IMG/VR virus record: IMGVR_UViG_3300043540_000022
Coordinates: 1-20,325 of that record
Length of the DNA stretch: 20,325 nucleotides
From: a virus
Reading direction: 5' to 3' (one strand)
Part shown: piece by piece, positions 1-20,325 of the stretch
How the letters are laid out: every line of letters starts with the position of its first letter
How positions within the stretch are numbered: position 1 is the first letter of the stretch
Notes under the pieces: model-generated
Databases searched by the model: none
What the model was told of the DNA's origin: nothing
Seen by the model: only the letters and a program-made list of their open reading frames with translations
Program-made: the position numbers and the translations under genes

Positions 1-728
1 GAGATAATAGGCGTCTCTCTGCACAACATTCGGGCCTTCCAAAGCGCCTCCCTGGCACACCCCTGAATGAGACTCCCGGACACCCCGCCGACCAGTCCTT
101 CTTTCGCAAGAGGGGACGGTTGGGAAGGATTGAGGGTGTGCCAGGGAACGGCGTTTATGAGGTCAAAAGCAGCCACTAAGCCGTCCAAGGAGGCACAAAC
201 GGGTAGGTATGGGTCCGAAAAACCGAGCTTTACTATAACGGGATGCCTGGTTGACACCGCCGTTGCTAAAACGAGGTTGCATATGCGTTCTACGCCCCAC
301 ATTTCGCCCGTATTCGGGCAACTGGCGTTTATCTCGATGCCCTTGATGTTGGGCAAACGATCCAGAATTCGGGCCATTATAACGGCCTCCCGGATCGTAT
401 TGGGACGGACGGAGACGATTACAGAATAGCGTGACGTAGCTCTGGCGTAGCAGTTCTCGACCCACCAGTCGATACCGGGATTGGTCAATCCCACGGCATT
501 TACGACGCCCCCAGGCACCCATTTAACGCACTTCCAGGGCCGCAGGGGATCGAGGTTGCCTGCTGTAGCCAGGTAGGTGAGGGTCTTGGTGATAACTGTC
601 AGTTTTGTGGGGTCAATGAGGCCCAACCAACGCAGCGGTTGCTCCCACCAATAGCCGTCGCCGGTGAATCCGAGTGCCCCGGAGGCACAGCAGAACTCCA
701 TGCGATGGCCATTGTGGAATTCAATCAC
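1..728 (-). CDS. pyrD: Dihydroorotate dehydrogenase (PyrD-like), 3' end outside window
   Basis: FMN flavoenzyme that oxidises dihydroorotate to orotate, the fourth step of de novo pyrimidine synthesis. The frame is open for 242 codons from a GTG at 728 to the window edge. Family landmarks are in order: an ASG segment near residues 15-17, VITKTLTY near 45-52, GN at 57-58, NAVGLTNPGIDWW at 77-89, EINASCPNT at 132-140, VKL at 166-168, INAVPW at 191-196, GGVSG at 214-218 and PII at 240-242. Cys137 sits where class 1 enzymes have the catalytic cysteine (class 2 enzymes have serine there). The C-terminal phosphate-binding part lies outside the window. The GTG is preceded by AAGGGG at a 6-nt spacing; an overlapping ATG hits TGA at once, and Met10 is the next option. 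It lies 12 nt after the upstream leftward gene, so the two are probably co-transcribed. The family call is strong; class and activity are inferred. Confidence 0.9.
   Translation of the reverse strand, partial: MIEFHNGHRMEFCCASGALGFTGDGYWWEQPLRWLGLIDPTKLTVITKTLTYLATAGNLDPLRPWKCVKWVPGGVVNAVGLTNPGIDWWVENCYARATSRYSVIVSVRPNTIREAVIMARILDRLPNIKGIEINASCPNTGEMWGVERICNLVLATAVSTRHPVIVKLGFSDPYLPVCASLDGLVAAFDLINAVPWHTLNPSQPSPLAKEGLVGGVSGSLIQGCAREALWKARMLCRETPII
49..147. repeat. 14-bp inverted repeat inside the PyrD-like gene
   Basis: TCCCTGGCACACCC at 49-62 and its exact reverse complement at 134-147, separated by 71 bp. Both arms are coding (segments with VPWHTL and IQGCAREAL). A smaller hairpin with a TCGC-like loop lies between them near 93-115. 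A function is not evident. Confidence 0.6.
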
Positions 729-2991: not shown

Positions 2992-3482
2992 TGGATACAT
3001 TCCTTGAATTCATCGACAAGAAGCAACGTGAGGGCAAGCGTCACCTGGGCCTCATGAAGAAGCTCCTGGAACGCAACGGCATCAACGTCACCGACCACCG
3101 GGAGGACGACGACCCCTACCTCTTCGTCCGCAACCCGAACAGCCAGGTGTCCTTCGACGGCATTCGGGTTTACCAGATCGGCAGCCAGATCGCCTACCGG
3201 GTCCAAAAGCAGGAAGACACCCACCCTTATGGTAAAGCCTATCTGCTCGACCTGGACGAAATGTATAGCGATTACCTCTCTGATAATATCGAGCAGGAGC
3301 GGGCTACCCATATGGTCATAAAGACCGTCACGGATGAGGTCAAGAAGTTCTTCGTCAAGAGTGCCGAGGCCGAGACTGAGATACGCAACGCCCAAATGGA
3401 CGGCGGCGACGACGGCATGGGCAAGATCATGATCCGTACCACGGGCACAGACTATAGCAACCAAGTGTTTAGCAAGGGTTAA
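2991..3482 (+). CDS. Uncharacterised 163-residue protein
   Basis: Starts at the ATG at 2991, sharing its A with the previous stop (TAATG). The TTG two codons earlier is unlikely. A GAGGAA lies just upstream. The N-terminus is a basic helix (MDTFLEFIDKKQREGKR). The middle looks beta-rich (residues about 45-70, FDGIRVYQIGSQIAYRVQK), followed by an acidic helical part with LDLDEMYSDYLSDNI and a flexible Gly/Asp-rich stretch near residue 140. No family was recognised. Overlapping start and stop codons on both sides place it in the same coupled run as its neighbours, so it probably works with them. Confidence 0.82.
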   Translation: MDTFLEFIDKKQREGKRHLGLMKKLLERNGINVTDHREDDDPYLFVRNPNSQVSFDGIRVYQIGSQIAYRVQKQEDTHPYGKAYLLDLDEMYSDYLSDNIEQERATHMVIKTVTDEVKKFFVKSAEAETEIRNAQMDGGDDGMGKIMIRTTGTDYSNQVFSKG

Positions 3483-3781
3483 TGAAGAGTTTTCATCAGT
3501 TTTGGGATAAGATCAACGGTAAAATGTATGAGGACGTACCACCGCCGGTGAAGTACGACCTGGCCGACTATACGAAGGCCATTAGCAACGGCAGTCCGAT
3601 GGCCAACACCGAGGAGGGTGATTGGAAACTAAGACCGATCAGCCACGAGGACACAGCCAGCTATGCTGCGGACGACGTGACGGATTGGTATGCGAAGCAC
3701 GGCACCAACACAACGAGGTTGGGGCCGGAGATGACGGACGCCGAGTTCAAGAAACACTACGGACACACCTGGGAGGGATAA
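3482..3781 (+). CDS. Uncharacterised 99-residue protein
   Basis: Starts at the ATG at 3482, which shares one base with the previous TAA, and ends at a TAA that shares one base with the next ATG. AAGGG upstream gives a usable ribosome site. The protein is hydrophilic, with no cysteine, no membrane segment and no recognised motif. The C-terminal third carries aromatic and acidic residues (DVTDWYAKHG, MTDAEFKKHYGHTWEG). The tight coupling on both sides is the main argument that it is real. Confidence 0.75.
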   Translation: MKSFHQFWDKINGKMYEDVPPPVKYDLADYTKAISNGSPMANTEEGDWKLRPISHEDTASYAADDVTDWYAKHGTNTTRLGPEMTDAEFKKHYGHTWEG

Positions 3782-5894: not shown

Positions 5895-8800
5895 ATGGCC
5901 AACATTGTAGAAGACGCATTTGGTAGACAAGTCGCAGGCGACCTCAACGCCATCAAAGGACTGCTGCAATCATTGACGCAGGGCAAGATGGGTCCGGCCA
6001 CCAAGCACGGCGACGGCGACAAGGACATGAGCAAGGTCGCCAATATCGTCAAGCAACTTGGTGATCTCACCAAGGAAATGAAGCAGGCCCAGAAATATGT
6101 CGAAGCCGCAATCGGAGCCAATAAACCCACCGGCGGCGGTCGAAACAAAACCCAGGAAAAGAGTCAGGAAACCGTCCTCGATAAAACCAACAAGGTACTG
6201 GTCAAAAGCCTGAGTGATAACAAGCAGATCGGCGGCAGTCTGGTCGAGATGGCCAAGAATATCAAGGTCTTCACCAATCTCGGCAAGTCGAAGCACAGTC
6301 TCGGTGTCGCTGATACCGTCACCCACGAATTACTGAAGGACATTATCCGGTCCCTTGGCAAGACGGTTGACGAGGCCAAGTATACCGAGATGCTGAAGCC
6401 CAAGGCCGAAGCCGACAAACCCCACATCGGCGGTGGGGGCGGGGGTGGTGCGAAAGGCGGTCGGCTCAAGGACATCGAAGAGCAGACCGAGAAATACTAC
6501 TGGATGAGCCTGTTGCACGAGGTCGAGCGGCACCTGCACGACTTCCAGAAGGCTTTGCTCGGTCTGGAAAAGGGTGACATCCGGGAGCAGTTGTTCGGCG
6601 GCATGATAAAAGATGAGCAGAAAAGCATCAAGCAGCTTCGTGCCATCGCCTACGAAACCGCCGGTGTGACCGCCGAGACGCACAGCCTCCAGCGTGCCTA
6701 TGAGGATATCGGCAAAACGGTTGCCGTGACGGGCTTTGACCGCTCGAAATTCCAGGCGCAATATGCCAAGAATCTGACCAAGGGCGTCAAGGACGCCAAG
6801 ATGGTCCAGCGGATCACCGCCACCCAACTCAACACCGAGAAGCAGCTTGGTTTAGAAGCCGGCGCCCTGGGCGAAGAGTTCATGAACTGGCACCAGGCCG
6901 GCAGAATGACCGCTATGCAACTGGCCGACATGGGCCGGGGTATGCGTGACGTAGCCCGCAACACCGGCTTGACCCAGGAAGGCTTGAAACAGGCCGTTCA
7001 GTCCAGCGAAGGCTTCATCACCAACCTGCGTAATGCCGCCAACCTGACCACGACCGCCGCCAAGAACGTCCTGGAGATTGCCGCCAACTCCCAGAAGTTG
7101 GGCGTCAAGCAGGAGATGGAACCGCTGTTGAAGGCCATGACCTCCAGCGTCAACCTGCTCAACGAAGCCCCCAAGGAAACGCAGACCTTGCTCTTCAACG
7201 CCGCTTCGAGCGTCGGCCGTGTCAAGGAGTTGATGCAGGGCACCATCTTGCAGAACAAGCAGGCGATGGCGGACATGGCCCGAGGTTTCGAGAACATCCT
7301 GAAGCGGTTCGGCGTCGAGAGTACCGAGCAGATCGACAATCTGACGGCCGAACGCAAGATGGTCTTGAACATGCAGATCAAGTCCATGACCGGCATGGAG
7401 CTTGGTGCCTTCCGCAACGTCATCGACACGATGAAAGAAGGCTCCAAGACAATGGCGATGCGTCTGGACGACATCCACAAGAAGCTCCAGGCCAATCTCA
7501 CCATCGAAGAGAAGCTGGCTCTCAAGGAAGAAGAGCGCCGGATGAAGACGAGCAAGGCCCTGGAAGTGATGACCGCCCTGGACGAAGCCGCCAAGGGCGC
7601 CAAGAACATGGACGAGGCCCTGGCCAAGTTCGGTCAGCGTCGGCAGGAGTTCGAGAAAGACCTCAACGCAATGGGCGTCTCCTGGACGAGCAACGCCGAT
7701 GTCATGCGTCAGGCCATCAATAAAGCCATCGAAGGCGTCAACACGTCACTCAAGGCGTCGGGCAAGCAGACTCTCAAGATCGACCCATCGAGCATCGAGC
7801 AGGCTCTCCGTGATCCGGTAGCGTTCCGTGAGCTTTCGGCCCAACTGTCTAAAGCCGAACAGCAGGCGGCAACCGCACAGAAGGCCGCACTGGACCCGAT
7901 GAGCAAGATCGAACAGCGGATGAGCGAGGTCAACGACACGCTCCGCAACTTTAGCAACAAAGCCCTGGGCGCTTTGAGAGGCATCAGTGGCGAACTGACC
8001 GTCATCGCCCTGTTGCTGACGACTGAAGCTGCCCGTGTTTACACGGATATTCAGCGGTGGAAGAACTTGCTGAAGGGCGCAATGGGCGAAATGTTTGGTC
8101 GCAAAACCCCCGCAGCAGCCGCCGGTGCTGCGGGCCACGAAATCGCCAAGAGTGCCAAAGAAATAAAGATCGAAAACGCAACCGCCCGTGACCTTGCACT
8201 ATCGCACAAGGCGAACGTAGCCCAAGTAATGCAGGGCAAGGTCGCAAAACAAGAACTAGCCAAGCACGCCGCTCCCGTGGGAGCCGCCGCAGCAGGTGCC
8301 GCTCCTGCCGGTCCAGCTACCGGCTTAATGGGCAGCATTGATGTCAAAGTTCTCGAAAAGGAACTTGAAAGTCTGAAGCAACTCGGTCCTGTTCTCAGGA
8401 AGGCTGCCTTCGCCATCGGCAAGGCGATGGTCGGCGTCCTGGCCCTGGCCTTCGCCATTATCGCCATCAGTAAAGGTTTGTCGCAGATCACGGGCATTGA
8501 CGCCAAGGTCGCTATCGAAACCGGGGCCACCGTCGCCGCTGTTATCACTACGGCCGGCTTGATCGCCGCCGCCACCGTGGGCGCCATGTACGCCCTGAAA
8601 GCATTCAACAAGTTCAGCCAGCAGAGCCTCAACCTGGAACTGATGAAGGCCGCTGCCAAGCTGGTCAGCATCTCGGTGGGCCTCGTCGCCCTGTCTCTGG
8701 CAGTCCTCTTGATCTCCAGGGCCATGATGAAGGTGGCCGGCGGCATGGATATGAAGAAAGCCGCCCTGATCGCCGCCGACGTTGCCGCCGTCATTGGCTC

Positions 8801-11800
8801 GGCCGCAGCCATCGCTGGCGCCGTTGTCGGCGCCCTCTATGCTCTCAAGGCCCTGAAGAAATCGGCCCAGATGAGCGGCGCCGCCGGAGCTATCTTCAAG
8901 GGCGGTCTGGCATTGATGCTGCTCACCCCGGCCATCGTCTTCCTGGCCAGTGCCGTCATCAAGATATCACAAGCCATCCTCGGCCTCTTCGGACTCGACG
9001 CCAAGAAAGCGGCCGAAGTCGCCTTCAACGTCGCCGGTATCATCCTGGCTGCGGCTGCTATTGCTCTGTCGGTCCTGGGAGCTTATGCCGCTATAGCAGG
9101 CTTGGGGGCCGCATCGAAGCTCATCCTCAAGGGTGTACCATTATTCCTGCAGGGCGTCTGGGCCTTAACGGTATTGACGCCAGTAATGGTCTTGTTGGCG
9201 ACGGCCGTTATCGGAATCACCAAAGCCATGATGGAAGGGATCGGCGCCAGCCCGAAGGAGGCGGTCCAGGTTGCCAAGGACATAGCGTCAATCATTCTGT
9301 CGGCGGGAGCTATCGCTCTGGCAATCATCGCAGCTTATGCGGCCATCGTTGGATTGGGTGCCGCAGCCCCGCTCATGTGGTCTGGGGCCAAGCTTGCACT
9401 TATAGGTGCCCTGGCACTCATGGCCCTAACTCCAGCGATGATACTGCTATCGGTGGCCGTTATCAAAATAGCTGACGCCGTGGCTACCGCCCTGGAAATT
9501 GACGCCGCACTGGCGAAGGAAATAGCCTCTAACGTGGCAGGCATCATCTGGGCCGGCGCCACCATTGCCGGTGGCGTACTCGGTGCCGCCACTGCCCTGG
9601 CAATCCTGGGCATGTTCGTCGCCAGCGGCCTGGGCCTGAAGGCTGCTCTGCTCATGGTGGCTGGCGCTGCCGCCCTAAGAGTCCTCACACCACGCATCAT
9701 TGACTTTGCCGTCACCATCATCAAGATCGCTGATGAGTTTCAGAAGAAGTCCAAGATGGACGCCGAACTCGCCAAGGACGTAGCCGAGCAGATCGCCGGC
9801 ATCATCAAGGGCGCCGGAACAATTGCCTTCTATGTTATGGCCTCGGCGGCGGCTCTCGCCATGCTAGGTTCAGCCATCGTTTGGATTCTACTCGCCGTTC
9901 CGCTCATGATGCTGGGTGCCAAGGCGCTCAAGGAACTAACGCCGGCTGTTATCGACATGGCCGTGGCCATTATAAACATGGCCGACGAATTGATGAACAA
10001 GGCCAACATGGACGCACAATTGGCCAAGGAAGTCGTATCAGACCTGCGTGCCATCATGGACGCCTCCTGGACCATCGCCAAGGAAATCATTGCCGGCGCC
10101 GCCAAGCTCGCCCTGCTCGGGGTACTAAGCAGTTTGGCCTCCCTGGTCGTCGGCTTCATGGAAGACGGCACGAAATTCTTCCGGGCCATCGCCACGCCGG
10201 TCATCGAGTTCATGAAGAGCGTCATCAACCTGGCATCGGGCGTCACCGAAGACATCGACCCCGCCACGCTCCAGAAAATTGTCTGCGGTTTCATGACCGT
10301 GGCAGACGTGGCGAGCAAAATCAGCGGCGTTATATTCGACAACTTCAGCAAGCTCATCAAGCTCGGCATTGCCGATATGATCGACAAGCTCTTCAGCGGC
10401 GGTATCGTCAAGACGCTCCAGCGTGGCGCTGAGTTCTTCCAGCAGATGGCTGGCCCGATTAAAGACTTCATGCGTGCCCTCATCGAGAGCGGCAAGCAGA
10501 TGAGCGGCCTGTTGGAAGGTAAAGCCGCCGAGGAAACGATCAAGGGCATGGAGAAAGTCTCCAAGGTCATCGAGATGGTCAACAACGTCATGAAGATGTT
10601 GATCGAGAACCTGATCCCACTGACCGAGCGGAAATGGTTCGGCCTGGTCAAGTCTCCTCTGGAGAAGCTGGAGAAGCAGATACCGGACTTCAAGGCGGCA
10701 TTCGGCCGGATCGCTCAATTCATCAATGAAGGCGTAATCGAACCTATTCGGAACAACTTCCGCAGTGTGAAGGATATTGCTCTGGCGGCACAGGCCCTAA
10801 AGGGCATCACGGTCATTCTGTGTCTGATAAAGACCATGATGGGTCAGTTAGGCGAACTCATTCTGGGCATCACTACTGATCCTAATGTATCTCGTTTCCG
10901 CAATCGGACCATGTATAAGCAAATCGCTGAGATGGTTCCTGATTTCCAGACTGCGTTCGAGACGATTGTTCTGTTCGTCAAGGACGGTGTAATAACACCC
11001 ATCCGCCGGGCCTTCCGGGATATTCGCCAGGTATACTTCGCCTCTCGGGCGACCAAGGCCGTTTCCGAAGCCATCGTCAACACGGCCCAGATGATTAAGA
11101 CCATCGGTGAGTCGCTGCTGCCGTTGTTGCAAGAACGTCGCTTCCTGAGAAACCGGCAGCGAATGAACCAACTGGACTTCCTGATAAACGAAGTGAAGCC
11201 GGCGGTTGAGCGGTCTTTTGAGGTTATCGTCCAGTTCGTCAAGGAGGGTATTGTGCGACCGATCTCCAGGGCGTTCCGTGACTTGAAGAAGCTACAGCAG
11301 GTTATGACTTCGGTGAAGCTGGTTGGTGAGATCATGGCCGGTCTGTCTACCACCCTGGATAACGTCTCGAAGACTTTGGACTATGCGATGCCGGCCCGGA
11401 GAGGCACGCACTCCTTGGGCCAGAAGTGGGCCATTGCCGGCCAAGCGACGATGGAGTTCATAGGCGAAGTGTTGACCGAGGTGAAGCAGCTTATCAAGAA
11501 GATTCCGAAGACTTCCAGCATCCAGGACAAGGTGGCCGGCGTCAAAGCCCTTGCTGAAGTCATGGTCAACATCATTCCGCTCTTGGACGGCCTGAACAAA
11601 TGGCTGGAAGTAGTGCCAGACTATACCCACTATAAGACAACCTGGCAGGAGAACAGCCGGGGCGAGCGTTTCAACGAGCGCACCGTGGTCACGGGCACCA
11701 CGAAAGGTCTGGCAAGCAAATGGGCCGAAGTTAGCTCGCAGATCAAGAGCTTCATTGAAAGCATCATCAACATGACCGCCGACATCGCCAAGAACTTTGG

Positions 11801-14660
11801 CCGTCAGTTCGCCCAGAAGGGTGATGCCCAGATGCTCCAGAGAAGTGTCCAGAACTTCCGCCTGGTCATGGAAGTCCTCAAAGGCATCATGGAATTCATG
11901 GAAGTCTTTGACAAGATGGTCAAGGCCGTCAGTCCGCACGAAGACGCCATGCGGCGCAACGGCGGTCAATCGTTCGAGATCATCAGCCGTATTCGTATTG
12001 GCCTGGAAAGGAGGAACGAGCAAGCTCGCAGCGAAGGCGGCTTCGTCGGTGTCATCAACGCCGTTATCGAAACCGGCAAACAAATCCTTGATCCCATCGT
12101 CAAGATGACCGGCAAGATGCAGCTTCGGGGCTATGAAGAAGCCTCCCGTGTCCTGACCTCCTTGGGCAATGTGTTCGAGGGCCTGCTCGAATTCTTCAAG
12201 CAAATGGATGAAGTCGTGAAGGCACTCAGCGACAACGAAAACCGCTGGTCGGGCACTGGTGAATACTCCTTCGAGGTCATCAGCCGTCTGCGCAACAGTT
12301 TGCGAGCCAGGAACGACGCCCACCAACGTGAAGGTGGCGTGGGTGGTGTCATCAAGAACCTCATGAACGAGGCCAAGAGGATGCTCGGCCCGGTTATGTC
12401 TCTGCGTGTAGATGTGAGTGGAATGCAGAAGGCTGCAAACATGATCCGGGCGATGGGCGGCATGATGACAGCCATGATCCAGTTCTTCGAGGAAATGGAC
12501 GAAATCGTTAAGTCCATTAGTCCGGCCGAGGACGCCGGCGATCAGTCCTTTGAGGTCATCAGCCGTGTCCGTATCGGCTTGGAAAGACGTAATGCCCGCT
12601 ATGCCCGTGAAGGTGGCGTCGGTGGCATCATGAAGAAGGTGTTTGAGGAAGCTCAGAAGATGGTCCAGCCGGTGGTGGACATGGGCGCCGACCGTGAGCT
12701 TATGAACAAGATGCGCCGGGGCTGGATGATCCTGAAGGCGTCGGTCGAAATCTTCAAGCTCCTGAACGAGTTCATGGAAGAGATGGGCGAACTGCTCACG
12801 GCTTCCAGCGTGCGGAGCGGAATGGGCCGTGACATGAACTGGTCGTCTCGGACGGGCGCCATCGAAGACATCCTCAAGCAGCTTGAGGCCCAGGAGGAAG
12901 GTGCTTTCGTCAGAAAACTAGGAATCATCTTCCATCTCGTGGACGGCATCATGGCTTCGATCATAGCGATGGAAGACACCCGAGAGAAACTACAGAAGAT
13001 AAGCATCGCCGCCTATGTGCTGCGGGGCTTGGGTCAGGTGTTCAAGATGCTACCCGAGTTCATGGATTCCATGAACGAAGTGACCAATATGCTGGGTTCC
13101 AATAGGTTCTGGAATATTGGTGGCGATAACGCCAAGGTCATGGACCAGATTCTTTTCCGCCTACGTCAACAGGCCAGCGGCGGCTACAAGGGCTTCGGCG
13201 GCTACATGCAGGAAATCTTCGATAATGTCAAGAAGATAATCGACCCGATAGCCAAGCTGGGCGAAGGCAAGGACAAGGTGAAGAAGATCACCACGGCCGC
13301 ACAGGTTATGCGGAGCGTGATGCAAGTCTTCGTGAATCTCCAGGCGTTCATGGAGAAGATGAATGAAGTGACCAACATGCTCGGCTCCCGAGAAGGATTC
13401 TGGGACAACGTGGGGCCGGACGCCAAGATCATGGACGTAATTATTGTAAGGTTGCGTAGGCAGGCAAGCGGAACCAACAAGGGCTTTGGCGCTTATATAG
13501 GTGAAATCTTTGATGCCGTCAAGAAGATGACGGACGGTATTGAGAAGGCCGGTTCGCCACGGGATATTGCGAAGTCTGCTCAGGTACTCAAGAGTGTCGC
13601 CACCATCGTCAAGTCCCTGCCGGATGTCCTCAAGAACGTGTCCACCCTCACCGACATGGTGAAGCCGGGCGAATTCGGAGAACTGCCGCCGGCCGAGAAC
13701 ATCCTGGCCAACAAGGATAAGTTCAAGGATTTCTTCGAGAAGACGACCCTGTTCCTCAAGGAAGGTATCGTTGAACCGATCTCCCGTATGGGCGTTGACC
13801 CACGGAAGGTAAACCAGACCGCTCAGATATTGACGGGCGTGGGTCGGACCATGAAGACCCTGCCGGAAATTATCCAGTCGGTCGGCCGGACGATTGAACT
13901 GTTCGACCCGAACGTCAACGTCGGCAACTTCCAGAACAACCTGGCGAACTTCATCAATCAGGTTGCAAACATGGCTGCCCTGAACGGCGCCGTAGATAAG
14001 CTGAAGGCCGCAAACGACCAGTTGGTCCAGATCGTCCGCACCTTGCAGGAAATGGCCCGGAACCTGACGACCATCAACGGCATCCGGCTCGACTTCCGCA
14101 CAATGGACCTGATCCGCCAGATCGGCGTGAACAACGCCCCGGTGACGGTCGGTGCCAGAGGCAACGGCGGGAACCCGGACGCCCAGGCGGCAGCCAACGC
14201 CATCACTCGCATGGGTCGGGACGCCACGACGGTTGGTAGTATTTATACCCATGATACGCACATGGAGAAAATAGGTGATGCGCTACTTACTAAGTTAGAT
14301 AGTCCGGCACAGACGGCGCTGGCCAATCCGAACATGATGACACCGGATGCCATCACGCAGGAACTTGAGAAGCGGCGTGCGGGCGAACAGCCCCAGAAGA
14401 CGGTGGTGCCGGGCGTGGACGACCTGAACGAGACAGCCAACAAGTCGTTGCTGTACGAGTATCAGGCCCTCAACGTCTTGAAAGACATCCACCGGGCCTT
14501 GCAGCCGCCGACGACTACTGGACATGATACGGAAGCGGCCGTCGCTTCGGCTCGTACTCGGGCCACGACCAATCGACCCCCACAGTTCTTCCGCTGGACA
14601 TCTGGCTTGACTAATCAGAGTGGTCCATTGGCGGCTATGAACCTACAGACTAATCTATAA
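5895..14660 (+). CDS. Giant repeat-built tail tape measure protein
   Basis: 2921 residues, the largest gene here. Tape measure proteins fill the tail tube, set its length, and pass into the host envelope at infection. Residues 1-830 are helical, Lys/Glu-rich and coiled-coil-like, interrupted by seven consecutive glycines at 179-185. From 836 to about 2685 the protein is a series of about 21 degenerate tandem repeats, the first seven hydrophobic. Repeat-like similarity fades over roughly the next 50 residues and a polar, disordered-looking tail follows. T4 gp29 has about 590 residues and lambda gpH about 850, so this one is very long; about 1.5 angstrom per residue gives roughly 440 nm. The ATG at 5895 follows the upstream stop by 2 nt, with AAGG upstream. 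Only two cysteines were seen. Baseplate genes follow directly. No peptidase or lysozyme motif was recognised. Confidence 0.93.
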   Translation: MANIVEDAFGRQVAGDLNAIKGLLQSLTQGKMGPATKHGDGDKDMSKVANIVKQLGDLTKEMKQAQKYVEAAIGANKPTGGGRNKTQEKSQETVLDKTNKVLVKSLSDNKQIGGSLVEMAKNIKVFTNLGKSKHSLGVADTVTHELLKDIIRSLGKTVDEAKYTEMLKPKAEADKPHIGGGGGGGAKGGRLKDIEEQTEKYYWMSLLHEVERHLHDFQKALLGLEKGDIREQLFGGMIKDEQKSIKQLRAIAYETAGVTAETHSLQRAYEDIGKTVAVTGFDRSKFQAQYAKNLTKGVKDAKMVQRITATQLNTEKQLGLEAGALGEEFMNWHQAGRMTAMQLADMGRGMRDVARNTGLTQEGLKQAVQSSEGFITNLRNAANLTTTAAKNVLEIAANSQKLGVKQEMEPLLKAMTSSVNLLNEAPKETQTLLFNAASSVGRVKELMQGTILQNKQAMADMARGFENILKRFGVESTEQIDNLTAERKMVLNMQIKSMTGMELGAFRNVIDTMKEGSKTMAMRLDDIHKKLQANLTIEEKLALKEEERRMKTSKALEVMTALDEAAKGAKNMDEALAKFGQRRQEFEKDLNAMGVSWTSNADVMRQAINKAIEGVNTSLKASGKQTLKIDPSSIEQALRDPVAFRELSAQLSKAEQQAATAQKAALDPMSKIEQRMSEVNDTLRNFSNKALGALRGISGELTVIALLLTTEAARVYTDIQRWKNLLKGAMGEMFGRKTPAAAAGAAGHEIAKSAKEIKIENATARDLALSHKANVAQVMQGKVAKQELAKHAAPVGAAAAGAAPAGPATGLMGSIDVKVLEKELESLKQLGPVLRKAAFAIGKAMVGVLALAFAIIAISKGLSQITGIDAKVAIETGATVAAVITTAGLIAAATVGAMYALKAFNKFSQQSLNLELMKAAAKLVSISVGLVALSLAVLLISRAMMKVAGGMDMKKAALIAADVAAVIGSAAAIAGAVVGALYALKALKKSAQMSGAAGAIFKGGLALMLLTPAIVFLASAVIKISQAILGLFGLDAKKAAEVAFNVAGIILAAAAIALSVLGAYAAIAGLGAASKLILKGVPLFLQGVWALTVLTPVMVLLATAVIGITKAMMEGIGASPKEAVQVAKDIASIILSAGAIALAIIAAYAAIVGLGAAAPLMWSGAKLALIGALALMALTPAMILLSVAVIKIADAVATALEIDAALAKEIASNVAGIIWAGATIAGGVLGAATALAILGMFVASGLGLKAALLMVAGAAALRVLTPRIIDFAVTIIKIADEFQKKSKMDAELAKDVAEQIAGIIKGAGTIAFYVMASAAALAMLGSAIVWILLAVPLMMLGAKALKELTPAVIDMAVAIINMADELMNKANMDAQLAKEVVSDLRAIMDASWTIAKEIIAGAAKLALLGVLSSLASLVVGFMEDGTKFFRAIATPVIEFMKSVINLASGVTEDIDPATLQKIVCGFMTVADVASKISGVIFDNFSKLIKLGIADMIDKLFSGGIVKTLQRGAEFFQQMAGPIKDFMRALIESGKQMSGLLEGKAAEETIKGMEKVSKVIEMVNNVMKMLIENLIPLTERKWFGLVKSPLEKLEKQIPDFKAAFGRIAQFINEGVIEPIRNNFRSVKDIALAAQALKGITVILCLIKTMMGQLGELILGITTDPNVSRFRNRTMYKQIAEMVPDFQTAFETIVLFVKDGVITPIRRAFRDIRQVYFASRATKAVSEAIVNTAQMIKTIGESLLPLLQERRFLRNRQRMNQLDFLINEVKPAVERSFEVIVQFVKEGIVRPISRAFRDLKKLQQVMTSVKLVGEIMAGLSTTLDNVSKTLDYAMPARRGTHSLGQKWAIAGQATMEFIGEVLTEVKQLIKKIPKTSSIQDKVAGVKALAEVMVNIIPLLDGLNKWLEVVPDYTHYKTTWQENSRGERFNERTVVTGTTKGLASKWAEVSSQIKSFIESIINMTADIAKNFGRQFAQKGDAQMLQRSVQNFRLVMEVLKGIMEFMEVFDKMVKAVSPHEDAMRRNGGQSFEIISRIRIGLERRNEQARSEGGFVGVINAVIETGKQILDPIVKMTGKMQLRGYEEASRVLTSLGNVFEGLLEFFKQMDEVVKALSDNENRWSGTGEYSFEVISRLRNSLRARNDAHQREGGVGGVIKNLMNEAKRMLGPVMSLRVDVSGMQKAANMIRAMGGMMTAMIQFFEEMDEIVKSISPAEDAGDQSFEVISRVRIGLERRNARYAREGGVGGIMKKVFEEAQKMVQPVVDMGADRELMNKMRRGWMILKASVEIFKLLNEFMEEMGELLTASSVRSGMGRDMNWSSRTGAIEDILKQLEAQEEGAFVRKLGIIFHLVDGIMASIIAMEDTREKLQKISIAAYVLRGLGQVFKMLPEFMDSMNEVTNMLGSNRFWNIGGDNAKVMDQILFRLRQQASGGYKGFGGYMQEIFDNVKKIIDPIAKLGEGKDKVKKITTAAQVMRSVMQVFVNLQAFMEKMNEVTNMLGSREGFWDNVGPDAKIMDVIIVRLRRQASGTNKGFGAYIGEIFDAVKKMTDGIEKAGSPRDIAKSAQVLKSVATIVKSLPDVLKNVSTLTDMVKPGEFGELPPAENILANKDKFKDFFEKTTLFLKEGIVEPISRMGVDPRKVNQTAQILTGVGRTMKTLPEIIQSVGRTIELFDPNVNVGNFQNNLANFINQVANMAALNGAVDKLKAANDQLVQIVRTLQEMARNLTTINGIRLDFRTMDLIRQIGVNNAPVTVGARGNGGNPDAQAAANAITRMGRDATTVGSIYTHDTHMEKIGDALLTKLDSPAQTALANPNMMTPDAITQELEKRRAGEQPQKTVVPGVDDLNETANKSLLYEYQALNVLKDIHRALQPPTTTGHDTEAAVASARTRATTNRPPQFFRWTSGLTNQSGPLAAMNLQTNL
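8400..10160 (+). repeat. Hydrophobic repeats 1-7 of the tape measure
   Basis: Residues 836-1422 hold seven tandem units of 82-86 residues. Anchors equivalent to the LTP motif fall at 845, 927, 1011, 1095, 1179, 1265 and 1349. A typical unit reads hydrophobic helix, LTPA, a second part of that helix ending VIKIADA, a polar link with (I/M)DA-x-x-AKE, then VAGIIxAxxxIA and a further hydrophobic helix. Charged residues become more common toward unit 7. Confidence 0.85.
10161..13949 (+). repeat. Amphipathic repeats 8-21 of the tape measure
   Basis: Residues 1423-2685 continue the same series with more charge. Anchors fall near 1434, 1520, 1605, 1690, 1777, 1852, 1950, 2050, 2149, 2242, 2338, 2434, 2531 and 2613, with a faint partial unit from 2686. 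Units near 1605, 1690 and 1777 share AF-x-x-I-x-x-F(V/I)K-x-G-x-x-x-PI-x-RAFRD. Units around 2050-2242 share SFEVISR-x-R and EGGVGG. Units at 2338 and 2434 share EVTNMLGS and RLR-x-QASG. Confidence 0.85.
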
Positions 14661-14671: not shown

Positions 14672-15193
14672 ATGCCATTAGCCACGGGCGCAGACGGCGA
14701 TTTAATGCCGATTGACGATTGTTTCATAGAAACATCCGGCGGGCAGATCGTTATGAAGATTCTGCCAGACATATCGGATACCAAAACCGCCCACTACCAG
14801 GACCAGGCCATCATCGGCCGATCATTTCCGCTGAAGACCTATTCCCACTCGGAAAACCGGGTCATCAACTGGACGATCCACTTGGTCGTGGTGACGGATG
14901 ACGACCTCACCACGAACCTTGAGACACTGCGCACTCTGGAAAGCATGGTATACCCGAGGACCGGCAACCCTTATAAACCTCCCGAAATAGCCACGCTGCA
15001 ATGTGGTAAATTACTGGCGACTAAACCCGTTTGTGCGGTCCTCAAAAGCTATAGCGTCAAATTCCCGACCGAGGTTGCCTGGGATGAAGGCTCGCTATGT
15101 CCTTATAAGTTTGATATCGACACAACCTGGGAGGTTGTGTACGACAGCGGCAGCCTACCGAACGCAGACATGATTGCACAGGACGGAACATAA
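14672..15193 (+). CDS. Putative tail tube initiator / hub-associated baseplate protein
   Basis: 173 residues from the ATG at 14672. Features seen: an N-terminal acidic stretch, QDQAIIGRSFPLKTYSHSEN near 43-62, a strand-rich INWTIHLVVVTDDDL, then LRTLESMVYPRTGNPYKPP near 86-104 and VCAVLKSYSVKFPTEVAWDE near 118-137. A core with a proline motif followed by a short strand, LKSYSVKF, and a final WEVVYD strand resembles the domain that precedes LysM in tail proteins of the XkdP/Pvc7 type, and could fill a T4 gp48/gp54-like role of joining hub to tube. Position between tape measure and gp53-like protein supports this. The exact homologue is not certain. Its stop overlaps the next start (TAATG). Confidence 0.8.
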   Translation: MPLATGADGDLMPIDDCFIETSGGQIVMKILPDISDTKTAHYQDQAIIGRSFPLKTYSHSENRVINWTIHLVVVTDDDLTTNLETLRTLESMVYPRTGNPYKPPEIATLQCGKLLATKPVCAVLKSYSVKFPTEVAWDEGSLCPYKFDIDTTWEVVYDSGSLPNADMIAQDGT

Positions 15194-15519
15194 TGGCCAA
15201 CCTGATAACAACTACCGATATACCTGGACGCCGATTTGTATCGGTCAGCAGTCGGTATTTCAAATCCCCCGTCATCTACTACGGGGAACTAAACCGTGTG
15301 ACTTTCACGACTTATAAGCGCCAGAAGCAGACCACCAGCACGTCGGACAAGTTCATGGTGGTAGGCAAAGGCTCGGAATACCGGCCCGACCTCGTGTCGA
15401 ACCAGTTCTTCGGCGTCCCAGACTTCTGGTGGCAGATCATGGAATACAACCAGATTTATGATATCTTTGACTTCAAGGCCGGAATAACAATCCGTATACC
15501 GGCAAGTCCGTTCAGATAA
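15193..15519 (+). CDS. gp53: Baseplate wedge protein, gp53-like with LysM-like end
   Basis: 108 residues from the ATG at 15193, which shares one base with the upstream stop. The C-terminal half carries the key signature: SEYRPDLVSNQFFGVPDFWW (about residues 57-76), EYNQIYDIFDFKAG and IRIP near the end. This matches T4 gp53, a wedge protein whose LysM-like domain helps hold adjacent wedges around the hub. The N-terminal half is a short beta-rich segment with SSRYFKSPVIYYG. Its length is about half that of T4 gp53, as is common in simpler contractile systems. A strong AGGAGGG at its 3' end serves the hub gene. Confidence 0.82.
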   Translation: MANLITTTDIPGRRFVSVSSRYFKSPVIYYGELNRVTFTTYKRQKQTTSTSDKFMVVGKGSEYRPDLVSNQFFGVPDFWWQIMEYNQIYDIFDFKAGITIRIPASPFR

Positions 15520-17006: not shown

Positions 17007-19163
17007 ATGCCCAAGATACCAGTTCAGAATGAATTATCGAATCTTAGTCTGCCTCAGAAGGTTGAGGTTATCAACCTGAGACTGCAACAACTCGAAGAAA
17101 TGTTCGGTTCGTTGAATTACGACGTTCGGAGGGTGGCTCAGTCCGAGATCAACGACCGTCTGGTCTTCCTGTCGCAGTCGGAAAATATGTACGGGATTCA
17201 CACCGCCCTGTGCATCGAAACCATCGACATCTGGAAACAGGGCCGCATCCGCTACTTCTCCCCCGTCTTCCACGACCCGAAGCAGCCGATCAAGAAGCTC
17301 CCCTGGGCCTGGGCTGTATCGCCCTTTGGTGGCTTTGACGACTCGGGTGCCCCTTGGGTGCCGCCGGCTGGGTCCACGGTCTGCCTGCTCTTCGAGAATG
17401 GCGTCCGTGATTCGCCTTATTACATCGGCACGGCCTGGCACCGCAACCGAGGTCCGGGCGGCAGCAAATGGCCCATCGGTATTCAAGAATTCGATCAAGT
17501 CTCCAAAGGCCACCGCAAGGGATACCTCTGTGGTCCCAACGACGAATCCCAGGTTTTGCCTCCCTGGAATACCGAGAACTATAACGGCTTCGACATTCAC
17601 ACCCTGGCCGACTTCGACCAGAACCCGGATGCCCAGAAGCGGATCACCGTCCCGAACATCTACGGCTTCAAAACGCCCGAAAAGCACATGATGAAGTTGG
17701 TGGACGGCGACCCCCGCTGCAATCGGCGCTGGAAGCGTATCGAAATCCTCTCCGGCTGCGGCAACTGGATGATCTTCAAGGACGACCACCTGCACTATGC
17801 CGGGCAATGGGCACACCCTCGCTGCGGCGTAGACCCTGGTGATACTAGCTGCGTGAAAGGCGTTAGTGACCCGAATCCGTCTGAAGACATCACGCAATTC
17901 ACTGGCATCAATGCCACTGGCAGTGTAAGCGAGAACGAGTCCACAGCCAGCCCGATACCGGGCACGAAGAAGGAAGACGTTCCTTGCGACGGCCAGGTCA
18001 GCAACAAGACCATTATTGGCGGACACCCACGGACGCCGAGGATTCGGCGCTACCAGGACACGAAGTATTCCAAGTCCCAAAAGGGCGCCAATCCGTTCTT
18101 CAAGCACCAGAACGAGTGCCGGCCGTATAAGGGTCCGGGCACGCCGCAGAACAACAAGGCCGACCTGCCGCAGAGCGGCATCCAATTCTTGTCATTGAGC
18201 GGTCACACCTGGGTGATGGACGATTCGGTCGAGGAACCGTCTGGTGCCCCGACCTGGGAGCGGTCCCTCCAGGACTTCGACTTCGGTTGCAACGACAAGT
18301 ATTTGGGCCGCATTTACCTGAAGACGGCCACGGGCCACGGCGTCGAGATGAGTGATGTCGAGGACGACAATCAGGTTCGGGGTATGAACAACTATATCCG
18401 CATCCTGACGGCGACCGGCAACATGATCGAACTGAACGATCACACGATTGACAAGGGTGGCCAGGGAAGTTGCCCGCCGAACGAGGCCGGCAAGTACCGT
18501 GGTATCACGATGGAAACCACGAGTACCCACCTGTTCCAGATGATTGACGAGGGCAACAAGCAGTGCGGGCCGAAGCGCAAGGAGGGCGGCGTGCCGGACA
18601 ACCTGGCCAACAAGGCTTACATCATGATCCGCTCGGGCTACGGCCTGGAGTTCTACATGGGCGACGACGACAGCCAGCGGGAAACCAAGAAGCAGTATAT
18701 CCAGATATACTCGCCGCAGAAGGACAATACGGTTCGCAAGGCCCACATCATGCGGTTCCAGGAGCGGCCATCGGGTCCGGGCCAGATATTCCTGCGTGCC
18801 GGCGGCGACTATATCGTTGTCACCTACGACATGATGGTGGAAATGGTCGGTGACAAGGTTGCCAACCCGTCCGACAAGTTGGAAATCATCAGCCGAACGA
18901 AAATTGTTGACTGCGATAAGTTTTACATCAACCTGGCCGATACTCATCTATTCTTGGCGAAGAAAACGATATCGTTGCTGGCCGGTAGTTCGGTGGACGA
19001 CTGCTTGGAAATTGACGGTACGCATGGACCGTGTATCGGCGGGGTGTTGGTGGCGATGGGCGGCAAGATACGCATTAGCGACCGGGTGTTTGCCAGTGCG
19101 TCCCGAAAATCCCAGGTGGCTTCCATATTTAGTATGTCCACTGATCCATTACCATTGTTCTAA
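17007..19163 (+). CDS. gp5: Baseplate spike protein, gp5/gpV-like OB-fold and beta-helix
   Basis: 718 residues from the ATG at 17007 with GGAG upstream. After an N-terminal helix (about 1-50) an OB-fold follows: GRIRYFSPVF near 79-88, PWAWAVSPFGG near 99-109, PPAGSTVCLLFENG near 118-131, DSPYYIGTAWH near 134-144. This matches the gp5 N-terminal domain that sits on the hub. From about 395, short beta repeats of roughly 30 residues (such as GRIYLKTATGHGVEMSD, NYIRILTATGNMIELND, AYIMIRSGYGLEFYMGD) resemble the trimeric beta-helix needle of VgrG and gp5. No lysozyme domain like that of T4 gp5 was recognised; residues about 150-390 are a Cys-containing insertion. Fifteen cysteines in all. No separate PAAR tip gene is seen in the window. 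Confidence 0.87.
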   Translation: MPKIPVQNELSNLSLPQKVEVINLRLQQLEEMFGSLNYDVRRVAQSEINDRLVFLSQSENMYGIHTALCIETIDIWKQGRIRYFSPVFHDPKQPIKKLPWAWAVSPFGGFDDSGAPWVPPAGSTVCLLFENGVRDSPYYIGTAWHRNRGPGGSKWPIGIQEFDQVSKGHRKGYLCGPNDESQVLPPWNTENYNGFDIHTLADFDQNPDAQKRITVPNIYGFKTPEKHMMKLVDGDPRCNRRWKRIEILSGCGNWMIFKDDHLHYAGQWAHPRCGVDPGDTSCVKGVSDPNPSEDITQFTGINATGSVSENESTASPIPGTKKEDVPCDGQVSNKTIIGGHPRTPRIRRYQDTKYSKSQKGANPFFKHQNECRPYKGPGTPQNNKADLPQSGIQFLSLSGHTWVMDDSVEEPSGAPTWERSLQDFDFGCNDKYLGRIYLKTATGHGVEMSDVEDDNQVRGMNNYIRILTATGNMIELNDHTIDKGGQGSCPPNEAGKYRGITMETTSTHLFQMIDEGNKQCGPKRKEGGVPDNLANKAYIMIRSGYGLEFYMGDDDSQRETKKQYIQIYSPQKDNTVRKAHIMRFQERPSGPGQIFLRAGGDYIVVTYDMMVEMVGDKVANPSDKLEIISRTKIVDCDKFYINLADTHLFLAKKTISLLAGSSVDDCLEIDGTHGPCIGGVLVAMGGKIRISDRVFASASRKSQVASIFSMSTDPLPLF

Positions 19164-19166
19164 ACT

Positions 19167-19586
19167 ATGAAGTTTTTAGGCGCACCATATCCGATATTGC
19201 CGAACGCCCTGGGCCTGTTGCACACGACCAACGGCGTCGATCAGATCAAATCTGACATGCTCGTTCTCCTGTTAACCAATCCGGGAGAACGGGTCATGCT
19301 GCCGGCGTTCGGCACGCCGCTGAAAAAGCTCATATTCGAGCAGAACGACACCGTGGTCGCTGCCCAAGCCCGCCAGATGATAATCAACTCGATCAACCTC
19401 TGGGAGCCTCGGGTAGCCATACAGCAAATACAGGTCAGTAGTGTTATTGACCCGAAAGAATTGAACTCGGCGGACGATAAGACCGAGGTTGGCCACATCT
19501 TGAGTATTCGGATTCTCTTCATTGATCCCGATAACATCAAGGAGGTTCAGCAGTTGTCGCTAGAAGTACCGTTGTCTGGAGGCTAA
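19167..19586 (+). CDS. gp25: Baseplate wedge protein gp25
   Basis: 139 residues from the ATG at 19167, 3 nt after the spike stop and without a clear ribosome site, which suggests translational coupling. gp25 is the small sheath-initiating wedge protein at the baseplate rim of contractile tails. Seen: GVDQIKSDMLVLLLTNPGER near residues 23-42, LPAFGTPLKKLIFEQND, then the conserved LWEPRVAIQQIQV near 78-90 (the EPR motif, E-P-R) and a C-terminal ILSIRILFID strand. The length fits the family. It sits before gp6, as usual in these operons. Confidence 0.92.
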   Translation: MKFLGAPYPILPNALGLLHTTNGVDQIKSDMLVLLLTNPGERVMLPAFGTPLKKLIFEQNDTVVAAQARQMIINSINLWEPRVAIQQIQVSSVIDPKELNSADDKTEVGHILSIRILFIDPDNIKEVQQLSLEVPLSGG

Positions 19587-20325
19587 ATGGAAAATTGCCC
19601 GATTGCGCCACAACCGCTGGCACAGTCACAAATCATCAATACGCCGAACGTATTCAATCTGAACTACACGAACCAGGATTTCTGGTCGATGAAGTCCCGG
19701 TTGATCGACTTTATCCGGCAGAAGTTCGCAAACCAGTTCAACGACTTCGTGGAAGGCGATATCGCCATCATGTTGATCGAGAATTGGGCGTTCCTGGCAG
19801 ATACCCTGTCCTTCAAGATCGACCAGATCGCCAACGAAATCTTCATCGACACCGTGACGGAATTGGAGAACGCCTTCCGTCTAGCGAAACTGGTCGGCTT
19901 CAAGCCCCAGCCGCCCATCGCCGCCCGGTCCTTCTGGACGGCCCGGATCAATAATCCACTCACGACGGATATCGTTATACCGACGCCGTTTGTGGTCAAA
20001 CTCGTTTCGGGGAACGTGCCGATCACCGTGGAACTCTTCCCGATGGACTCGGCCCACCAGCCGATATTCAACCAGGACATCGTTATACCGGCCGGCAGTA
20101 TCGTGAACTCCAGTATCATCGGCCTGGAAGGCAGGACGTTCAACGACGTTCACACGGGCGACGGTACACAGAATCAGCAATATACCCTGAGCTTCTCCCC
20201 GGTCATCACGGATTCAATCAACGTGACGGTGGACGGCATCCTGTGGAATCAGGTGGACTTCTTTACCGATTCCCAACCACGGAGGGAGTATCGGGTTGAG
20301 TTTAATTCCACCTATCAAGGTTTTG
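19587..20325 (+). CDS. gp6: Baseplate wedge protein gp6 (J-like), 3' end outside window
   Basis: The first 246 codons from the ATG at 19587, directly after the gp25 stop, with GGAGG upstream. Seen: NYTNQDFWSMKSRLIDFIRQ near residues 26-45, GDIAIMLIENWAFLADTLSF near 57-76, QIANEIFIDTV near 80-90, then LAKLVGFKPQPP near 98-109 and beta-rich sequence with repeats such as DIVIPTPF and DIVIPAGS. This is the N-terminal half of a gp6/baseplate J protein, which forms the iris ring of the baseplate. The reading frame is open to the window edge, so the remaining part and the following wedge genes are outside. Confidence 0.9.
   Translation, partial: MENCPIAPQPLAQSQIINTPNVFNLNYTNQDFWSMKSRLIDFIRQKFANQFNDFVEGDIAIMLIENWAFLADTLSFKIDQIANEIFIDTVTELENAFRLAKLVGFKPQPPIAARSFWTARINNPLTTDIVIPTPFVVKLVSGNVPITVELFPMDSAHQPIFNQDIVIPAGSIVNSSIIGLEGRTFNDVHTGDGTQNQQYTLSFSPVITDSINVTVDGILWNQVDFFTDSQPRREYRVEFNSTYQGF

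Follow-up and report, generated by a model that had tools for sequence, protein, structure and literature searches.

A large-unit tandem repeat array in a putative phage tail tape measure protein, and whole-unit length differences among its relatives

Introduction

Tail-length evolution is usually argued from engineered deletions. A role for repeats was proposed by Belcaid 2011 (PMC3271669), in which tape measures were suggested to evolve by duplication and loss of units, in that case 11-residue W/F repeats, and deletions in the repeat region of the TP901-1 tape measure shorten the tails of the mutants (PMC5099701). In TP901-1, each residue of the protein accounts for about 0.145 nm, the value of an extended helix (PMC5099701). 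Phage G combines a 2893-residue tape measure with a 450-nm tail (PMC8570332).

The gene described here belongs to a natural series of homologous putative tape measures. They range from about 1250 residues to more than 4900, and whole units gained or lost can be recognised directly in them. The series includes a single-unit difference between two nearly identical phages (L106 and L124).

Periodicity and unit types

The window (the whole stretch of DNA analysed, 20,325 bases) is a virus record known as a metagenome contig. An earlier note had placed about 21 degenerate tandem repeats at 8400-13949, in what it took to be a tape measure gene. Those coordinates are right, corresponding to residues 836-2685 of a 2921-aa ORF (5895..14660, plus strand). 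BLOSUM62 autocorrelation gives a lag of 84 for residues 836-1360 (z=9.4), a lag of 85 for residues 1361-1800 (z=4.7), and lags of 192, 96, 97 and 93 for residues 1801-2685 (z=9.1, 7.2, 6.6 and 6.5, respectively). Lags of 84-97 dominate, and an 11-aa peak is not among the top lags. The helical lags of 4 and 7 are also strong, and composition-matched controls therefore matter. In the self-alignment proposed by the earlier note as a check, 30 of 43 overlapping 85-aa segments within residues 836-2685 score above the best result from any of the reversed or locally shuffled controls; the best offsets are mostly 82-86, 168-170, 254, 96-99 or 192-196 residues. Leave-one-out HMMs recover 17 of the 19 units that could be placed, at 28-82 bits, with the best decoys at 12-22 bits. 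Tandem periodicity in this protein is thereby confirmed, and it is stronger in the relatives than in the window. Tandem Repeats Finder detects nothing at the DNA level in the window, which indicates that the copies there are old.

The array opens with seven hydrophobic A units of 81-86 aa (residues 841-1429; 8415..10181, plus strand, as are all features of the gene), several of which carry LTP anchors; each is found by its leave-one-out HMM at 47-83 bits, the best decoys reaching 17-22. Two degenerate units follow (residues 1430-1513 and 1514-1592; together 10182..10670). These are the two missed by the leave-one-out HMMs; the window's own profile does not lift them above decoys, and they are found only with a profile built from relatives. 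Next come three Ap units of 85-86 aa (residues 1593-1848; 10671..11438), at 44-55 bits and with homologous arrays in relatives. No unit is found by profiles in residues 1849-1989 (11439..11861), a stretch long enough to hold one or two diverged units. Residues 1990-2569 (11862..13601) contain six B units of 93-99 aa, at 28-80 bits, with a profile that matches the window only, and a last Ap unit lies at residues 2603-2690 (13701..13964; 38.6 bits). The earlier count of about 21 is thus fair, with 19 units placed and room for one or two more, and its period of 84-87 residues for the first twelve units fits residues 841-1848, with 93-99 aa for the units after them.

The units are homologous within each type. 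Between types, profile comparison links Ap and B better (probability 79%) than A and Ap (42%), and gives no link between A and B. A common ancestor of all three types is therefore only suggested by these profiles. AlphaFold models of four A units and of three Ap units are helical but of low confidence (pLDDT 54 and 51, respectively); in the A-unit model there are about two helices of about 36-40 residues per unit, and each unit probably consists of two helices. Searches of PDB, Pfam and PHROG with the tape measure or the unit alignments returned nothing informative, the PDB matches of the Ap alignment being mainly designed coiled coils and other helical proteins.

Copy number among relatives

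With the whole tape measure as query, no relative was found among viral contigs, so the spike gene, the neighbouring 443-aa gene and an alignment of the N-terminal domain were used instead. These led to many IMG/VR contigs, some longer than 340 kb, from which about 40 tape measures, complete or cut, of 1249 to at least 4983 residues were read. Lag scans replaced whole-protein self-BLAST, in which off-diagonal matches were absent, probably because they were contained in the full-length match.

In the first set of relatives, HMMs of the window's A and Ap units pick up tandem arrays in ten, and they match nothing in reversed decoys. Iteration of the search reveals nearly contiguous arrays of 10-34 units in many relatives, with only single weak matches in decoys, and the array-bearing proteins recognised by profiles from the window's units are 1818 to over 4100 aa long. 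In these relatives, A units are spaced at 85.4 residues (sd 3.2) and Ap units at 81.3 residues (sd 4.8). Copy number in relatives, which the earlier note had proposed to compare, varies with protein length (r=0.90, 78 aa per unit) across 17 full-length proteins that have 7 or more units each, with one outlier excluded. This correlation is partly built in, as the units are part of the protein length. Short-read assemblies can collapse near-identical tandem copies, and the copy numbers given here, taken from metagenome contigs, may be underestimates.

Related complete proteins of 1250-1910 residues have no detected arrays, with the exception of one of 1818 aa with 10 units (L024). Another short protein (L011, from G005; 1912 aa) has no detectable units but 13 transmembrane-like segments, and belongs to a clade with 100/100 support that also contains array-bearing proteins of 4404, 4741 and at least 4983 residues. 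Its place among these indicates that arrays have been gained or lost on a large scale, or have diverged beyond recognition.

The two longest of these proteins are L090 (from G007), with 4741 aa, and L091 (from G008), with at least 4983 aa in an ORF cut at the contig end; alignment with G007 gives an estimated full length of about 5160 for the latter. Their C-terminal halves contain other repeats, with lags of 79, 98, 117 and 128, that the A and Ap profiles miss. A second repeat system is also present in L118 (residues about 3440-3640), with lags of 44, 66, 117, 139, 161 and 183, mostly 22 apart. In L098, from a 459-kb contig (G025), no A, Ap or B unit is found by profiles, and residues about 1685-2240 hold near-identical repeats at lags 78 and 172 (96% and 91% DNA identity), a separate expansion.

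Unit-sized steps between close relatives

One step separates L106 and L124. Where they can be aligned, the two tape measure genes share 99.8% identity, and the only gap between them is of 273 nt, exactly 91 codons; 16 and 15 units are detected in this pair. The step lies in the Ap region, and the stretch that L106 carries in duplicate has 96% DNA identity. The length difference could be an artefact of assembly collapse. Recent duplicates at the unit lag occur elsewhere among the relatives, at 91-97% DNA identity; in L086, an array with lag 86 keeps 97% DNA identity over 282 residues, and relatives at 71-74% identity are shorter at this position by 169 or 264 residues (roughly two and three units). 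Other steps between relatives that are 71-79% identical amount to +86, +91, +88, -76 and +79 residues.

Most steps agree with the local tandem lag. For two of them (+335 in G008 and +80 in G004), matching self-similarity was not found, and these may be of another origin. L118 and L120 differ by a step of 117 residues at a place where a lag-117 repeat occurs locally; this place belongs to a separate C-terminal repeat region, the second repeat system of L118 mentioned above. When a fixed period of 84 aa is assumed, 6 of 10 steps fit against 25% expected, a moderate enrichment; the period differs between arrays, and comparison with the local lag is thus more telling. Several smaller steps are of 41-43 aa, about half a unit (for example at residues about 837-881 in L088/L103 and about 2996-3074 in L086/L088), and single helices may be gained or lost as well. 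The earlier note had suggested that the protein grew as units were duplicated, about 85 residues at a time, and this is borne out by these whole-unit differences and by the recent DNA-level duplicates.

It may be asked whether such steps concern tail length at all. About 17 of the 20 transmembrane-like segments of the window's protein lie within residues 840-1462, A units are the most hydrophobic units in all relatives examined, and hydrophobic regions of other phages' tape measures are needed for infection (PMC5099701). These observations could be accommodated by a model in which the repeats, though real, are maintained for the sake of membrane insertion, with the A units forming a multi-pass channel through which DNA enters; tail length would change only as a side effect or be set by another part. 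We consider this unlikely, as the Ap and B units are not hydrophobic, make up more than half of the array in many members and also vary in number, and as the L106/L124 step falls among Ap units. In an array that we read instead as a ruler growing by whole units, the hydrophobic first part probably also supplies membrane-inserting segments for DNA entry.

Genomic setting and identity of the gene

The 2921-aa ORF is by far the largest gene in the window, and its product is predicted to be helical (AlphaFold models, low confidence). Baseplate and spike genes lie directly downstream of it, all on the plus strand: a baseplate wedge gene at 15193..15519 (PHROG 7145, E=7.5e-15), a spike/hub gene with a Phage_base_V domain at 17007..19163 (PF04717, E=2.6e-7), a gp25-like baseplate wedge gene at 19167..19586 (PHROG 261 and 43) and a gp6/J-like baseplate wedge gene at 19587..20324 (PHROG 10646 and 219), which is cut by the window end. 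In the spike-gene relatives with enough upstream sequence, one long homologous ORF is present at the corresponding place. Ahead of the array, the protein has a conserved N-terminal domain without repeats (residues 200-710; 6492..8024, plus strand), defined by an alignment of 13 homologues that are 25-59% identical to the window. From gene order, size and predicted helicity, we infer that this protein is the tail tape measure.

It would have to be a very improbable case for the gene to encode some other large virion or injected protein of the tail module. The 2921-aa protein has no match in Pfam or PHROG, and the link of its N-terminal domain to a tape-measure family is weak (PHROG 28, E=0.0012, matched by one of the 13 homologous domains). 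However, its position directly upstream of baseplate genes is that of the tape measure gene in phage G and many myophages (PMC8570332), and its size, its predicted helicity and the single long ORF at the same place in relatives all argue for a tape measure as well.

Still less probable is that the units of this tape measure arise from a generic helical composition, rich in Ala and Leu, together with heptad spacing, and never went through duplication: despite the strong helical lags and the very hydrophobic early region, this cause is ruled out by reversed and shuffled controls, which retain composition and amphipathic spacing yet fail, and by the near-identical duplicates in relatives (91-97% in DNA), and two other long helical tape measures (phage G and P23-45) are without comparable repeats.

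There is no tail sheath gene in the 20-kb window. The tails of the window's phage are nevertheless likely to be contractile, as a sheath gene is found in four relatives (G026, G037, G025 and G010). One of these, G026, also carries the window's gene at 1660-2991 in a 78% identical copy. In the G026 and G037 records, the sheath gene lies more than 100 kb from the tape measure gene, an arrangement unlike the compact tail modules of many myophages. At the other edge of the window, on the opposite strand, there is a partial gene with a dihydroorotate dehydrogenase domain (3-728, minus strand; PF01180, E=7.4e-13), which is unusual in adjoining a phage tail module.

Proposed mechanism and tail length

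We think it quite likely that the gene encodes the tape measure of a large contractile-tailed phage, consisting mostly of tandem helical units of 80-99 residues, and that whole units are gained and lost by recombination or slippage, so that the ruler changes in unit steps. In such a model, homologous neighbouring units would serve as substrates for unequal recombination or replication slippage, which would add or remove whole units while the reading frame and the helical pattern are kept. If the protein is extended inside the tail tube, each unit would add about 12-14 nm of tail, and the length of the ruler would change accordingly. By analogy with the per-residue ratio of TP901-1 and phage G, the tail of the window's phage should be about 0.44 micrometre long, and the value of about 13 nm per unit follows from the 0.145-0.15 nm per residue of other phages (PMC5099701), provided that the same ratio applies here.

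A more tentative suggestion, which we regard as doubtful, is that the unit is a quantum of length matched to the tail itself. At 0.15 nm per residue, 81-85 residues would correspond to 12.2-12.8 nm, or about three rings at a rise of 4.1-4.2 nm (4.15 nm in the phage G sheath), a fit that is arithmetic only; published non-contracted rises extend from 3.6 to 4.28 nm (PMC8570332). Gain or loss of a unit would then mean about three rings. The lengths of L090 and L091 would predict contractile tails of 0.7-0.77 micrometre, as compared with 0.45 for phage G. We know of no contractile tails as long as those predicted here. If confirmed on virions, the units would provide a discrete, countable measure of tail-length evolution and a set of natural length variants, and very long contractile tails would be expected.

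Comparison with known systems

Of 50,697 records in the phage collection, only that of an uncultured phage (LR756511.1, 595 kb) matches the tape measure (N-terminal domain, 32% identity), and it also matches the spike gene (38%). Unlike the window's protein, its tape measure is about 1640 aa long and has no detectable units, and no tandem arrays were found in annotated phages with the A and Ap arrays as queries. In the moraphages, another uncultured jumbo-phage lineage, the tape measure gene is reported not to be recognisable (PMC12619734).

Two long tape measures of described phages resemble the proteins studied here in size but not in repeat content. Bacillus phage G gp183 (2893 aa, 450-nm contractile tail; PMC8570332) shares the size class and the position upstream of baseplate genes, but in the self-alignment test only 2 of its 67 segments exceed the control and there are no tandem units. 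The tape measure of Thermus phage P23-45 (5002 aa) is similar in length to the longest relatives, but that phage is a siphophage, and none of 118 segments exceeds the control, again without tandem units.

The resemblance in principle is to the tape measures with 11-aa (or 11-11-18) W/F repeats, which, like those of the window's lineage, contain tandem units that can be duplicated and lost, with a corresponding change in their number. As in the Belcaid model, copy number varies among relatives, but the period is not the 11-residue W/F period: the unit here is 80-99 aa, and the W/F marker pattern is not noted (compare PMC3271669 and PMC5099701). There are up to 34 copies, in proteins of 1800-4700 aa that belong to large, probably contractile-tailed phages. 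In the open-access literature searched, no report was found of so large a unit, of copy numbers this high, or of large contractile-tailed phages that differ naturally by a single unit. The principle of repeat-driven tape measure evolution is thus already known from 11-aa units (Belcaid 2011), whereas the large unit, its copy number and the natural single-unit steps appear to be new.
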